Origin: Elusimicrobiota bacterium
GTDB lineage: Bacteria; Elusimicrobiota; Elusimicrobia; UBA1565; UBA9628
NCBI GenBank assembly: GCA_016182905.1
Contig: JACPFR010000061.1
Span: 1-38,940 of the forward strand
Reading direction: 5' to 3'
DNA: 38,940 nt
The position numbers and the translations under genes were made by a program. Shown piece by piece: positions 26,186-30,032 of this stretch (within the stretch, counting starts at the first letter, position 1; each line of letters begins with the position of its first letter). The notes under the pieces were generated by a model, which worked only from the letters and a program-made list of their open reading frames with translations, was not told the origin of the DNA and ran no database searches.

Positions 26186-27829
26186 TCAGCGCCTCGCCGT
26201 TCCGAGCGCGGGGTCGGCGGGATGGTCGGGCGGGAGGCCCTCGAGGGTCAGCAGGCGGCTTCCCAGGCGGGCGAAGATGGGCGCGGCGACCAGTCCGCCG
26301 TAGTAGGCGCCTTTCGGCTCGTGCAGGACGACGAGGATGGTCCAGCGGGGCGCGGAGGCCGGCAGGTAGCCCGCGAAGGAGGCCGTGTACGCGGAGGAGG
26401 AGTACTTCCGCGTGAGCGGGTCGATCTTGCGCGCGGTGCCGGTCTTGCCCGCGGCGCGGTAGCCGGGTATCCTCGCGCTGGCCGCCGTGCCGCGCTCGAC
26501 GACGCCCTCGAGCATCGCCGAGACCTCGCGCACCGCGCGCTCGGAGGCGACGCGGCGGACCTTGACCGGGGGCTTGCCGTCGGCGATCAGCTTGGGCTCC
26601 CACAGCGTGCCGCCGTTGGCGATCGCGGAGTACGCGCCCAGCATCTGCAGCGGGCTCACCGCCAGGCCGTAGCCGTAGGAGGAGACGGCCAGGCCGACCT
26701 TGGTCAGGTCGGAGAGCGGCTTGAGCTCGCCGGCGCTCTCTCCGGGCAGCGGCGCGCCCGTCTTGGCGCCGAAGCCGAACGCGCGCGCCAGCCGGTAGAA
26801 GCGCGCGGCGCCCACCCGCTCGACCACCTTCGCGGTGCCGATGTTCGACGAGCGCTCCATCACCTGCGCCAAGGTCATGTTCCCCTCCGGCTCATGGTCC
26901 GTGATGGTTACTCCGGGGGTGAGCTGGAACTTACCGCCTTCGCCGTTGAAGAGCTCGTCCGGGCGCACGACCCGGTCGTCGACGGCGGCCAGCGCCGTGA
27001 CGATCTTGAAGGTCGAGCCGGGCTCGAAGGCGTCCTGGACCAGCGGGTTGCGCAGCGGGTCCGGCGGCCACGCGGCCATCGCCAGGATCTCGCCGTTGCG
27101 CGGGTCCTGGATCGCGACGACGCCTTCCTTGAACTGGCCCTTCTCGCCGCCCTCGCGCAGCGCCTCCTCCGCGAGGAACTGGGCGGTCCGGTCGAGCGTC
27201 AGCTTCAGGGGATCGGGCTCGTCGCCGGCGTCGGAGACGCTCTTGTAGATGGAGCGTCCCTGCCCGTCGCGGATGACCTCCATGCGGCGCGCGCGCCCGG
27301 TCAGGCGCTTGTCCTGCGACAGCTCGAGCCCGGCGAGGCCCTTGCCCTCGGCTCCGACCAGGCCGAGGACGCCGCGCGCGAGGTCGCCGTTCGGGTACAC
27401 GCGCTCCTGCGCGGGCACGAGGCCCAGGCCCTCGACGCGCGCCTCGGAGAGCTTCTGGAACTCCTCGAGGGACAGCTTCGTTTTCAGCCAGGCGAAGCGG
27501 TTGGCGGCGCGGGTCTTCCTCGCGATCTCGGGGGCGGGCAGCTTGAGCAGCGGCGCGAGCCTCGCGCCGAAGGCGTTCGGATCCTTGACCATCGCCTTGT
27601 CCACGAAGCACGACCAGGAAGGGATGGACCGCGCGAGCACGCGGCCGCGGCGGTCGATCAGGTCGGCGCGCGGGGCCGCTTCCTTGGCGGTGCGCGCGAA
27701 CTCGCCCGAGGCCCGGGTGGAGAGGTTGTCGTGCCGGAGGACCTGGAGGTAGGCGAGGCGGACGCCGAGCGGCAGGAGCGGCGACAGCGCCAGGGTGGCG
27801 GCGACGGTCAGCCGGAATCCGAGGTCCAT
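26186..27829 (-). CDS. ftsI: FtsI/PBP3-type class B penicillin-binding protein
   Basis: 547 residues. One N-terminal membrane anchor (about 7-29), a dimerisation/pedestal region starting 'RADLIDRRGRVLARS', and the transpeptidase domain (about 235-530). Catalytic Ser272 and Lys275 (EPGSTFK), S327-S-N329 and K462-T-G-T are intact. It cross-links septal peptidoglycan together with FtsW. No PASTA repeats follow. It lies 10 bases after ftsL. Confidence 0.96.
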   Translation of the reverse strand: MDLGFRLTVAATLALSPLLPLGVRLAYLQVLRHDNLSTRASGEFARTAKEAAPRADLIDRRGRVLARSIPSWSCFVDKAMVKDPNAFGARLAPLLKLPAPEIARKTRAANRFAWLKTKLSLEEFQKLSEARVEGLGLVPAQERVYPNGDLARGVLGLVGAEGKGLAGLELSQDKRLTGRARRMEVIRDGQGRSIYKSVSDAGDEPDPLKLTLDRTAQFLAEEALREGGEKGQFKEGVVAIQDPRNGEILAMAAWPPDPLRNPLVQDAFEPGSTFKIVTALAAVDDRVVRPDELFNGEGGKFQLTPGVTITDHEPEGNMTLAQVMERSSNIGTAKVVERVGAARFYRLARAFGFGAKTGAPLPGESAGELKPLSDLTKVGLAVSSYGYGLAVSPLQMLGAYSAIANGGTLWEPKLIADGKPPVKVRRVASERAVREVSAMLEGVVERGTAASARIPGYRAAGKTGTARKIDPLTRKYSSSAYTASFAGYLPASAPRWTILVVLHEPKGAYYGGLVAAPIFARLGSRLLTLEGLPPDHPADPALGTARR

Positions 27830-27839
27830 GGCGTCGGCC

Positions 27840-28193
27840 TCAGCTGCGCGAAGGTCCGACGAGGGGCAGCCGCGCCCAGAGGCGGGGCAGCAGGCCGCCG
27901 GTCTCGAGCGAATGCCCCGACAGCGAGCGGAGGGTGCCGGGAGCGGCCGGGACCATCCCGAGCTTGGTGTTCGCGCGCGCGGCGAGGGCCGCGGGAGCCA
28001 TGGTCTCGTCGAGCTTGAGGCGCAGGTCCGCGACGCGGCTGCGCAGGGCGCGGGCCTCGCGCCGGGTGGACTCGACCCGGTAGCCGATCCGGGTGGCCTG
28101 GACGTGCTGCCAGCAGAGGAACATGAGGAGCGCGCCCAGGCCCGCGAACTTCACGACTCGTCGAGGATCGAATCCCATCAGCGCGTCCATCAT
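27840..28193 (-). CDS. ftsL: FtsL-like division protein
   Basis: 117 residues: short cytoplasmic N-terminus, one membrane helix (about 16-33), then a heptad-like coiled coil ('ESTRREARALRSRVADLRLKLDE', about 41-63) and a 'TKLGMVPAAPG' segment typical of FtsL near the end of the coil. FtsL proteins are poorly conserved, so the call rests on topology and on position just before ftsI. AAGGA precedes the start. The hairpin array lies directly upstream in the same transcript. Confidence 0.8.
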   Translation of the reverse strand: MMDALMGFDPRRVVKFAGLGALLMFLCWQHVQATRIGYRVESTRREARALRSRVADLRLKLDETMAPAALAARANTKLGMVPAAPGTLRSLSGHSLETGGLLPRLWARLPLVGPSRS

Positions 28194-28218
28194 ACCATGT
28201 TCCTTTTAGAGTGAGGAG

Positions 28219-28460
28219 CGGGCGCCCCCGCCGAGAGGGGCGCCCGCCCTATAGTTGGCGGCTCCCCCCCGCCGAGAAGGGAGGCCGCCTAAGTCGGGCG
28301 GCTCTCCCCGCCGAGAGAGAGGCCGCCTTTATCAACGGATTGGTGGTGGGGCATCTATATCCACCAATCCAAAAACTCCGAGATCGTTGGGACGGCCCTT
28401 CCCCGCCGAGAGAGAGGGCCGTCCCGTTATCGATGGCGAGCGCCCCGCCGAGAGGGCGCC
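28219..28460 (-). repeat. array of six hairpins, five with an invariant CCCCGCCGAGA core
   Basis: Six hairpins fill the gap between the 63-codon gene and ftsL: 28219-28248 (11-bp perfect stem), 28258-28290, 28298-28328, 28338-28371 (10-bp stem, unrelated loop), 28390-28426 (11-bp perfect stem) and 28441-28460 (6-bp stem). In five of them CCCCGCCGAGA is unchanged (TCTCGGCGGGG in the mRNA strand), with CGCCGAGA starting at 28230, 28271, 28310, 28405 and 28447. Spacing is 41, 39, 95 and 42 bases; the fourth hairpin sits where a unit is missing. Stem sequences differ but remain paired. No T run follows any hairpin, so they are not classical terminators. Strand is given as that of the surrounding operon. 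Confidence 0.85.
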
Positions 28461-28473
28461 CCCCAAATCCAGT

Positions 28474-28665
28474 TCAGGGCCGGTTGGACCCCCTCGTCTT
28501 GAGGAAGACCCGCCGCCACACGTAGCCGGGGGAGCTGATCTTGCCCACCGGAGAGACCGCGACGGTCTGCCGGCGGTCGAGAAGGAAGGACACCGTGGTG
28601 TCCAGCTTCGTCAGGGCCGCCATCGCGGCCGTCGATCCGCTCAGGAACGAGGTGTTCTTCATCAT
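28474..28665 (-). CDS. unknown 63-residue protein inside the dcw cluster
   Basis: 63 residues starting MMKNTSFLSGS. The ATG lies 12 bases after the rsmH stop and is preceded by AGGGGGGAA, a usable ribosome site. Third codon positions are strongly G/C, as in neighbouring genes. A mildly hydrophobic first half ('STAAMAALTKLDTTVSFLL') is followed by a basic half ending 'GYVWRRVFLKTRGSNRP'. No membrane helix is convincing and no family is recognised. It occupies a place where no standard dcw gene is expected, and the hairpin array begins 14 bases after its stop. Confidence 0.6.
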   Translation of the reverse strand: MMKNTSFLSGSTAAMAALTKLDTTVSFLLDRRQTVAVSPVGKISSPGYVWRRVFLKTRGSNRP

Positions 28666-28677
28666 TCGTGTTCCCCC

Positions 28678-29586
28678 CTATCGCTTCTTTTCGATGACCC
28701 GCAGTTTCGCGCTGCGGCTGCGGGGATTACGCGCGACCTCTTCCTCGCTCGGGGCGATCGCCGACTTGGCGTCGCCCTTCCCGAGATACGCGCACGACCC
28801 CTGCGCGACGAACGAAGCGAAAACGTTCTTGACGATGCGGTCCTCGAGCGAGTGGAAGGTGATCACGCACAGCCTTCCGCCGTTCTTGAGGTACGGCACC
28901 ACGGCCTCGAGGCCGCGCGTCAGCGACTCGAGCTCCTGGTTCACCGCGATGCGCAGGGCCTGGAACGTGCGCGTCGCCGGGTGATGCCCGGTGCGCGGCA
29001 CGACGGACTCCACGCAGTCGGCCAGCTCCAAAGTGGTCGAGAAGGGCTTTTTCGCGCGGCGCGAGACGATCGCGCGGGCGATCTTGTCCGCCTCCGGCTC
29101 CTCGCCGAACTCCGTGAGGAGCATCGCGATCTGCTCGGCCGGCCAGCGGTTGACGATCTGCTCGGCCGTGAGCGAGGCGTCGGGCCCCAGGCGCATGTCG
29201 AGGGGCCCCTCGCGCAGGAACGAGAAGCCGCGGGAGGGCTTGTCGAGCTGCAGCGAGGAGACGCCGAGGTCGAACAGCGCGCCCGTCAGAGGGAAGAACC
29301 CTTCCTTCTCCAGAACCGCGCCCAGGGAACGGAAGTTCGAGCGGACCGCGTGGAATCTTCCACTGTGGGCTCCGAGCCGGTGACCGGCTTCAGCGAGCGC
29401 CTCCGGATCCGCGTCGAGACCAAGTACCTTTCCCTGGGCTGAAAGCTTGTTGAGGAGGGCCTCGGAATGGCCGCCCAGACCGAGGGTGGCGTCGAGATAC
29501 AGTCCCCCCTTGTCCGTGACGAGGCGATCCAGCGTTTCCGCCAGAAGGACCGACTCGTGCGTGTACCGGCGCTCTTCCAAGATCAT
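28678..29586 (-). CDS. rsmH: RsmH 16S rRNA (cytosine-1402-N4) methyltransferase
   Basis: 302 residues (MraW). N-terminal 'HESVLLAETLDRL', SAM-binding 'YLDATLGLGGHSEALL', 'DLGVSSLQLD', 'GPLDMRL', 'RTFQALRIAVNQEL' and 'ITFHSLEDRIVKNVF' are all family signatures. It methylates C1402 of 16S rRNA. Start overlaps the mraZ stop by 4 bases. Confidence 0.98.
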   Translation of the reverse strand: MILEERRYTHESVLLAETLDRLVTDKGGLYLDATLGLGGHSEALLNKLSAQGKVLGLDADPEALAEAGHRLGAHSGRFHAVRSNFRSLGAVLEKEGFFPLTGALFDLGVSSLQLDKPSRGFSFLREGPLDMRLGPDASLTAEQIVNRWPAEQIAMLLTEFGEEPEADKIARAIVSRRAKKPFSTTLELADCVESVVPRTGHHPATRTFQALRIAVNQELESLTRGLEAVVPYLKNGGRLCVITFHSLEDRIVKNVFASFVAQGSCAYLGKGDAKSAIAPSEEEVARNPRSRSAKLRVIEKKR

Positions 29587-30032
29587 ATCTCCAGGCTCTT
29601 CCCGATCTTCCTGTACGCCGGGGCGACGGTCGACTTCTCGTACGCCGCCCAGCGCTTCGCGTCCCAGATCTCAGCGCGGTTGCCCGCTCCCTGCACCAGC
29701 ACGTCGAAGCGCAGCCCCGCGTGCTCCTTCAGGTACTGCGGGACGAGTATGCGTCCCTGCGCGTCCGTCTCGACCTCGACCGCCTCGGAGAAGAACTTGC
29801 GCTTGAACGCCCGCTCCTGCTCCTTGTCCGGCATCGAGAACATCTTCAGATCGTCCGCGAGCATCTTCTCCCACTGCGTCGGCAGGAACAGGTAGAGGCA
29901 GCCGTCCATCCCGCTCGTCAGGTAGAACGCTCTCCCCTTCTCCTGCGCCAAAGTCTCCCGGTACTTCGGAGGCACCGCGAGGCGGTTCTTCGGATCGAGC
30001 GAGTAGTCGTAACGGCCGATGAGCAGGGCCAT
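29583..30032 (-). CDS. mraZ: MraZ transcriptional regulator of the dcw cluster
   Basis: 149 residues with two AbrB-like halves, each carrying the D-x-x-x-R motif of the family: 'YSLDPKNRLAVPPKYRE' (near 10-26) and 'VETDAQGRILVPQYLKEHAGL' (near 88-108). MraZ forms rings that bind repeated TGGG-type boxes upstream of its own gene. Four such boxes lie just ahead of this ATG, so autoregulation is expected. It is the first gene of the dcw operon. Confidence 0.96.
   Translation of the reverse strand: MALLIGRYDYSLDPKNRLAVPPKYRETLAQEKGRAFYLTSGMDGCLYLFLPTQWEKMLADDLKMFSMPDKEQERAFKRKFFSEAVEVETDAQGRILVPQYLKEHAGLRFDVLVQGAGNRAEIWDAKRWAAYEKSTVAPAYRKIGKSLEI

Follow-up and report, generated by a model that had tools for sequence, protein, structure and literature searches.

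A tandem RNA hairpin element with a fixed loop between rsmH and ftsL in the dcw cluster of the class Elusimicrobia

In the class Elusimicrobia, GC-rich hairpins, single or in a tandem array, stand in the dcw mRNA between rsmH and ftsL, and we hold it nearly certain that they form a new structured RNA element. What the data support are a structure on the RNA strand with covariation, an invariant loop, the restriction to one locus, a tight distance to the upstream stop codon and a varied copy number. Few bacterial gene clusters are as conserved as dcw, and a class-wide RNA element fixed at one of its junctions points to a post-transcriptional control that is undescribed as far as the literature was searched: no paper describing the element was found, with a 2017 catalogue of 224 candidate RNAs lying outside the search.

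The hairpin array and the strand that folds

The window, that is, the whole stretch of 38,940 nucleotides analysed here, forms contig C61 of an Elusimicrobiota draft genome (MAG) with a size of 3.98 Mb; the nearest named relatives of this genome are other MAGs of the phylum, such as Elusimicrobia bacterium GWA2_66_18, and the one-contig genome CP096137. On the minus strand, the order of the genes is mraZ (29583-30032), rsmH, also known as mraW (28678-29586), an ORF of 63 codons (28474-28665), the hairpin array, ftsL (27840-28193) and ftsI (26186-27829), and a sigma-70-like promoter precedes mraZ (30122-30094). RsmH, the upstream neighbour in all carriers, is recognised by Pfam Methyltransf_5 (E 3.6e-100), and the gene 3' of the array is assigned to ftsL by its position before ftsI and by a match to NCBIfam FtsL_Actino (E 1.9e-10) that lies under the curated cut-off. 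At another place, this genome and many members of the genus encode a further RsmH-like protein that shares about 40% identity with the dcw copy (loci L048-L058, among them L052 at G000:C31:12056-12946), and the rsmH of the one-contig genome G011 (G011:C1:2068077-2068971; L047, L059, L060) is broken across several frames, probably by sequencing errors.

On the mRNA (minus) strand of 28216-28465, five hairpins present the invariant loop UCUCGGCG (core UCUCGGCGGGG), accompanied by one hairpin of another type. The corresponding 11-mer of the plus strand, CCCCGCCGAGA, occurs exactly at 28226, 28267, 28306, 28401 and 28443 and nowhere else in the window, with a spacing of 39-42 nt and one gap of 95 nt. 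In the order of the mRNA, the cored hairpins lie at 28434-28465 (core 28443-28453; -24.1 kcal/mol, z -3.9), 28389-28425 (core 28401-28411; -30.2 kcal/mol, z -4.2), 28297-28327 (core 28306-28316; -22.2 kcal/mol, z -2.2), 28257-28289 (core 28267-28277; -25.3 kcal/mol, z -3.2) and 28216-28249 (core 28226-28236; -32.9 kcal/mol, z -4.4), the first one beginning 8 nt past the stop codon of the 63-codon ORF and the last one ending 22 nt upstream of the ftsL start codon. Each of them folds alone (-22 to -33 kcal/mol, z -2.2 to -4.4), with inner bulges or internal loops in the second, fourth and fifth, whose stems are not perfect, and the z of the 287-nt stretch as a whole is -5.7 for the mRNA strand and -4.5 for its complement. 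The gap holds the hairpin without the core, on the same strand (28337-28370; loop AUAUAGAUGCCCCA; -16.4 kcal/mol, z -3.9), whose inner GGUGGAUAU...CCACC is kept in most of the closest relatives while its outer stem varies and is still paired. Within its subclade this hairpin is itself conserved, as a fixed inner GGUGG-AUAY...CCACC inside a variable outer stem. A terminator scan of the array found none, and no T runs follow the stems.

The first-pass annotation had described five hairpins sharing an 11-base core at intervals of about 40 bases, an unrelated hairpin filling the missing place and no terminator T runs, all of which is borne out. Its extent and strand need some correction: an array is indeed present, at 28219-28460 in that description, with the core given on the plus strand, but the folds reach 28216-28465 and, as the genes are on the minus strand, the transcribed core is UCUCGGCGGGG.

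Compensatory changes were analysed in a gap-free alignment (A4) of 62 distinct units from across the class, with a stem of 11 bp. CUCGGCGG is invariant in this alignment and the loop reads [U/A]CUCGGCG in 62/62 units, while 97.2% of the stem cells are paired, compared with 70.4% in shuffles, and 10 of the 11 stem pairs have changed on both sides. Since the units were partly found through their pairing, two extra checks were made. With only one hairpin taken per genome, 98.6% of the cells are paired, 9/10 pairs have changed on both sides, and none of 500 shuffles is as good. The other check counted UCGGCG without selection: in the intergenic DNA of the genus, 79 of the 88 mRNA-strand occurrences belong to hairpins that keep 8 or more of 10 pairs, compared with 19 of 85 in adjacent coding DNA, and the antisense motif is rare between genes and never found in such hairpins (0/7). 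Stem-keeping compensatory changes, as expected of a cis-acting structured RNA, are therefore strong in both the 62 units and the one-per-genome set, and the earlier proposal that stems which vary yet stay paired reflect selection on structure, together with the covariation analysis suggested for it, has held up. In cells away from the loop, G-U is found 25 times on the mRNA strand and A-C 5 times (p 3e-4); because a G-U on the mRNA strand would be an A-C mismatch on the opposite strand, the mRNA strand is the folded molecule.

Distribution and restriction to one junction

Of the 19 genomes in the genus, 17, among them that of the window, yielded the main copy of rsmH, and the interval behind it was examined; in all 17 the array lies between the small ORF and ftsL, with a varying number of copies. 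Carriers as a whole have 1-8 copies and belong to seven families of the class, a range that amounts to a natural dosage experiment across related species. A covariance model built from the genus (R1) picks up hairpins at this site across other genera of the family, as well as in families f2, f3, f4 and f14. By inspection, the hairpin is also found in rsmH-ftsL intervals where this model is silent (G022, G023, G029, G032, G034, G217, G226, G229) and in those of families f6 and f12. The hairpin of genus g18 (G219) has a different loop, and none is present or recognisable in the rsmH-ftsL interval of genus g19 and of the sampled members of f5, f8, f9, f10 and f11, most of the genomes in the comparison being drafts. 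A conserved position beside the same gene, as expected of a cis-acting RNA, is thus observed in the rsmH-ftsL interval of seven families, and the element is old within the class. Near-identical tandem copies in some genomes (G231, G216) indicate that local duplication happens.

Some of these intervals hold further features. In G033 (L083, G033:C39), a different repeat family with the words TTCGGGACGT and GTTTGGTACGTC flanks a single cored hairpin, and in g19 (L191, L193), where the cored hairpin is missing, a low-GC palindrome, CTTAAGG...CCTTAAG, is found either between rsmH and ftsL or within the small ORF.

The 63-codon ORF upstream of the array is lineage-specific. Families f1-f3 conserve it, with YVWRRVFLKG as an unvarying C terminus (YVWRRVFLK in the window), and f4 and f10 have distant likenesses of it; it has no match in Pfam or NCBIfam, and the predicted structure of its product is unreliable (pLDDT 58). 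The ORF was considered as an obligatory partner of the hairpin and rejected, since each occurs alone: the hairpin without a recognisable ORF in G219 (with its altered loop), f6, f12 and f14, whereas in g19 and f10 the ORF, or something distantly like it, is present and the hairpin is not. We consequently treat it as context of the array.

Within the 4 Mb genome, the exact 11-mer occurs 28 times, compared with 8 for a reversed control, and among 20 of the 23 sites outside the array there is one strong hairpin, an ordinary terminator. When 235 genomes of the class were searched, all matches with E<=1e-3 fell on one contig per genome, and each one inspected was the rsmH-ftsL interval. A search of 341 genomes of the phylum with the model R3 placed all strong matches (E<1e-5) at the rsmH-ftsL site, the weaker ones comprising additional dcw copies, distant members found there too (L234, L236, L240) and chance matches, some of which are ordinary terminators (L233, L238, L239, L244). 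As the first pass of this search scores only the best candidates, 400 kb of the one-contig genome G011 were scanned directly with the model, with no match (best E 0.49). Neither did 59 rsmH loci from a thin sampling of other phyla give a match (best E 0.37), and the covariance models of Rfam, that of the mraW RNA motif included, gave no above-chance match close to the array. The pattern GGCGG..TCGGCG..CCGCC, a loose inverted repeat, was uninformative, being unselective in these GC-rich genomes. The search for the core in this genome and its relatives, as the first-pass annotation had advised, thereby leaves the hairpin essentially confined to the rsmH-ftsL locus, in agreement with its claim of a dcw-specific element.

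Distances to the neighbouring genes and possible roles

Distances to the flanking genes were taken in 50 genomes, with boundaries set automatically and a few of them wrong (e.g. G208). The first hairpin follows the upstream stop codon at a median of 9 nt, and at 4-15 nt in 38 of the 50 genomes, irrespective of whether the small ORF or rsmH is the upstream gene, whereas the last hairpin and the FtsL motif are anywhere between 32 and 434 nt apart. Being tight to the upstream stop codon and loose to ftsL, the element would act at the 3' boundary of the upstream mRNA rather than as a switch of ftsL translation. The hairpins are often flanked by GAUYUGG on the 5' side and CGAAUUUGA on the 3' side, and the units are spaced with a mode of 38 nt, most of them 35-44 nt apart, which does not correspond to one fixed helical phase. 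In family f4, the single hairpin of G035 (L086, G035:C16) lies between rsmH and the homologue of the small ORF, and not 3' of that homologue.

The reading that we favour, with a probability of roughly 0.45 and on grounds of sequence comparison, is that the element forms a 3' boundary of the upstream mRNA, is probably recognised by way of its loop and would set the rsmH-side product against the ftsL-side product. According to this reading, the dcw mRNA would fold its hairpin, or tandem array, just past the stop codon of whichever gene precedes ftsL, and the fixed loop of each hairpin, which suggests that something recognises it, would be the docking site of an RNA-binding factor. Once bound, the hairpins may define the 3' limit of the portion of the transcript that covers mraZ, rsmH and, where present, the small ORF, possibly through a block to 3' exonucleases, directed processing or a stop of the polymerase, and the outcome would be the amount of rsmH-side product relative to ftsL-ftsI and the mur genes, a higher copy number leading to a higher occupancy. 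More tentatively, an RNA-binding regulator of the Elusimicrobia may read the loop on 1-8 hairpins and so coordinate the rsmH side with the ftsL-ftsI-mur side, which would be an RNA-protein control dedicated to the cell-division operon, with a strength tuned over evolution by the number of hairpins. Since the loop is short, invariant and repeated, its binding partner should be directly fishable.

G020 and part of the genus have a good promoter 3' of the last hairpin, in which TATGAT or TATAAT precedes an ATG by about ten bases, as a transcript boundary would predict. Against the 3'-boundary reading, several clades have no recognisable promoter ahead of ftsL, and f9, f10 and others manage without the hairpin. 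As a separate observation, TATGAT stands exactly ten bases before the ftsL ATG in nearly all genus members (around 28180-28195 of the window, minus strand), in several of them with a TTGAAA-like -35, a possible ftsL promoter with a very short leader.

A hairpin near a stop codon is also expected of a plain terminator or stabiliser. The hairpins might thus be plain weak intrinsic terminators or exonuclease barriers, stacked to insulate ftsL from upstream transcription, with a loop that nothing reads. The GC-rich stems directly past the stop codon would fit this explanation, as would the downstream promoter that ftsL has of its own in part of the genus and the short T stretch found 2-7 nt past the last stem in several genomes (CCTTTTT in G215, CCCCTTTT in f6). 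However, an invariant loop of 8 nt is unexpected of a terminator, the terminators in 400 kb of G011 having varied loops, and most units, all five of the window included, have no T tract directly past the stem, so that we regard this explanation as rather unlikely. Less credit still is given to translational control of ftsL, in which a protein on the last hairpin or hairpins would block or aid the entry of the ribosome. Even though the array ends as close to the ftsL start in the window as described above, and the hairpin of f6 almost touches the start codon, lying a few nt before the ATG with no Shine-Dalgarno sequence seen, so that an effect on ftsL translation is possible there, it is the upstream stop codon and not ftsL to which the distance is tight. 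In addition, G035 has the small-ORF homologue between its hairpin and ftsL, and the likely promoter 3' of the hairpins would, in part of the genus, exclude them from the ftsL mRNA.

Two explanations remain. Inverted repeats with a fixed asymmetric centre and a single orientation, followed in some genomes by a promoter, could act as DNA, extruded or single-stranded, with a DNA-binding protein attached to them ahead of the ftsL promoter; but a two-stranded cruciform would not display the preference for G-U over A-C on the mRNA strand, the spacing of 35-44 nt keeps no single helical phase, and tightness to a stop codon would be meaningless for DNA, which makes this explanation highly improbable. 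The spreading palindromic element that the first-pass annotation had offered as an alternative fares worst and fails the check for scattered units that the same annotation had named. The near-identical tandem copies of G231 and G216 would suit a mobile or REP-like palindrome multiplied here by accident, but the copies of such an element should be scattered, and within the sensitivity of the searches it is refuted by strong matches in 341 genomes that all lie at one locus, with none in the 400 kb of the one-contig genome; the uniform orientation of the hairpins and an orthologous site kept in seven families also speak against it. We give this explanation practically no credence.

Relation to known systems

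The letters ACUCGGCG occur also in the helix IV arm of the 5S rRNA of G011 and several other genomes, with GGCG there within the 5S stem. Mimicry of this arm was rejected, since the hairpin loop and the 5S loop do not track across lineages: the dcw loop of f6, f12 and f14 is unchanged alongside a 5S arm that looks quite different, and in g19 the 5S letters are present but the hairpin is missing. The 16S and 23S loci of G011 showed no similar hairpin.

Several known classes share part of the architecture described here. A CRISPR array, with identical repeats and unique spacers of constant length, was rejected, as the stems differ and the linkers between units measure only about 7-10 nt. Intrinsic terminators are likewise GC-rich hairpins behind a gene, but the element usually has no U tract after the stem and has a conserved loop and tandem copies; the canonical form was rejected for the array, which lacks that tract, short T stretches at a small distance being found in some other genomes. 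REP/BIME palindromes of enterobacteria are stable hairpins located just past stop codons inside operons, where they can protect the upstream mRNA, and they are scattered over the genome with their stem sequence kept. The hairpins studied here share with them the stability and the place behind a stop codon, but lie at one locus and keep the loop while the stem varies; a REP-like nature was rejected on account of the lack of scattered copies. CsrA/RsmA proteins bind arrays of RNA hairpins whose stems are free and whose loops show a fixed motif, GGA. Repeated hairpins, a fixed loop and free stems are common to both, but a CsrA/RsmA site was rejected because the loop, [U/A]CUCGGCG in all A4 units, contains no GGA.

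The mraW RNA motif reportedly stands before mraW operons. It is a candidate structured RNA named for the dcw gene mraW (rsmH) and listed for Actinomycetales (Weinberg et al. 2010, PMC2864571). The element of the Elusimicrobia is likewise a candidate structured RNA tied to a dcw gene, but it has no Rfam match, belongs to another phylum, lies 3' of rsmH and before ftsL, and consists of tandem hairpins with the loop [U/A]CUCGGCG.
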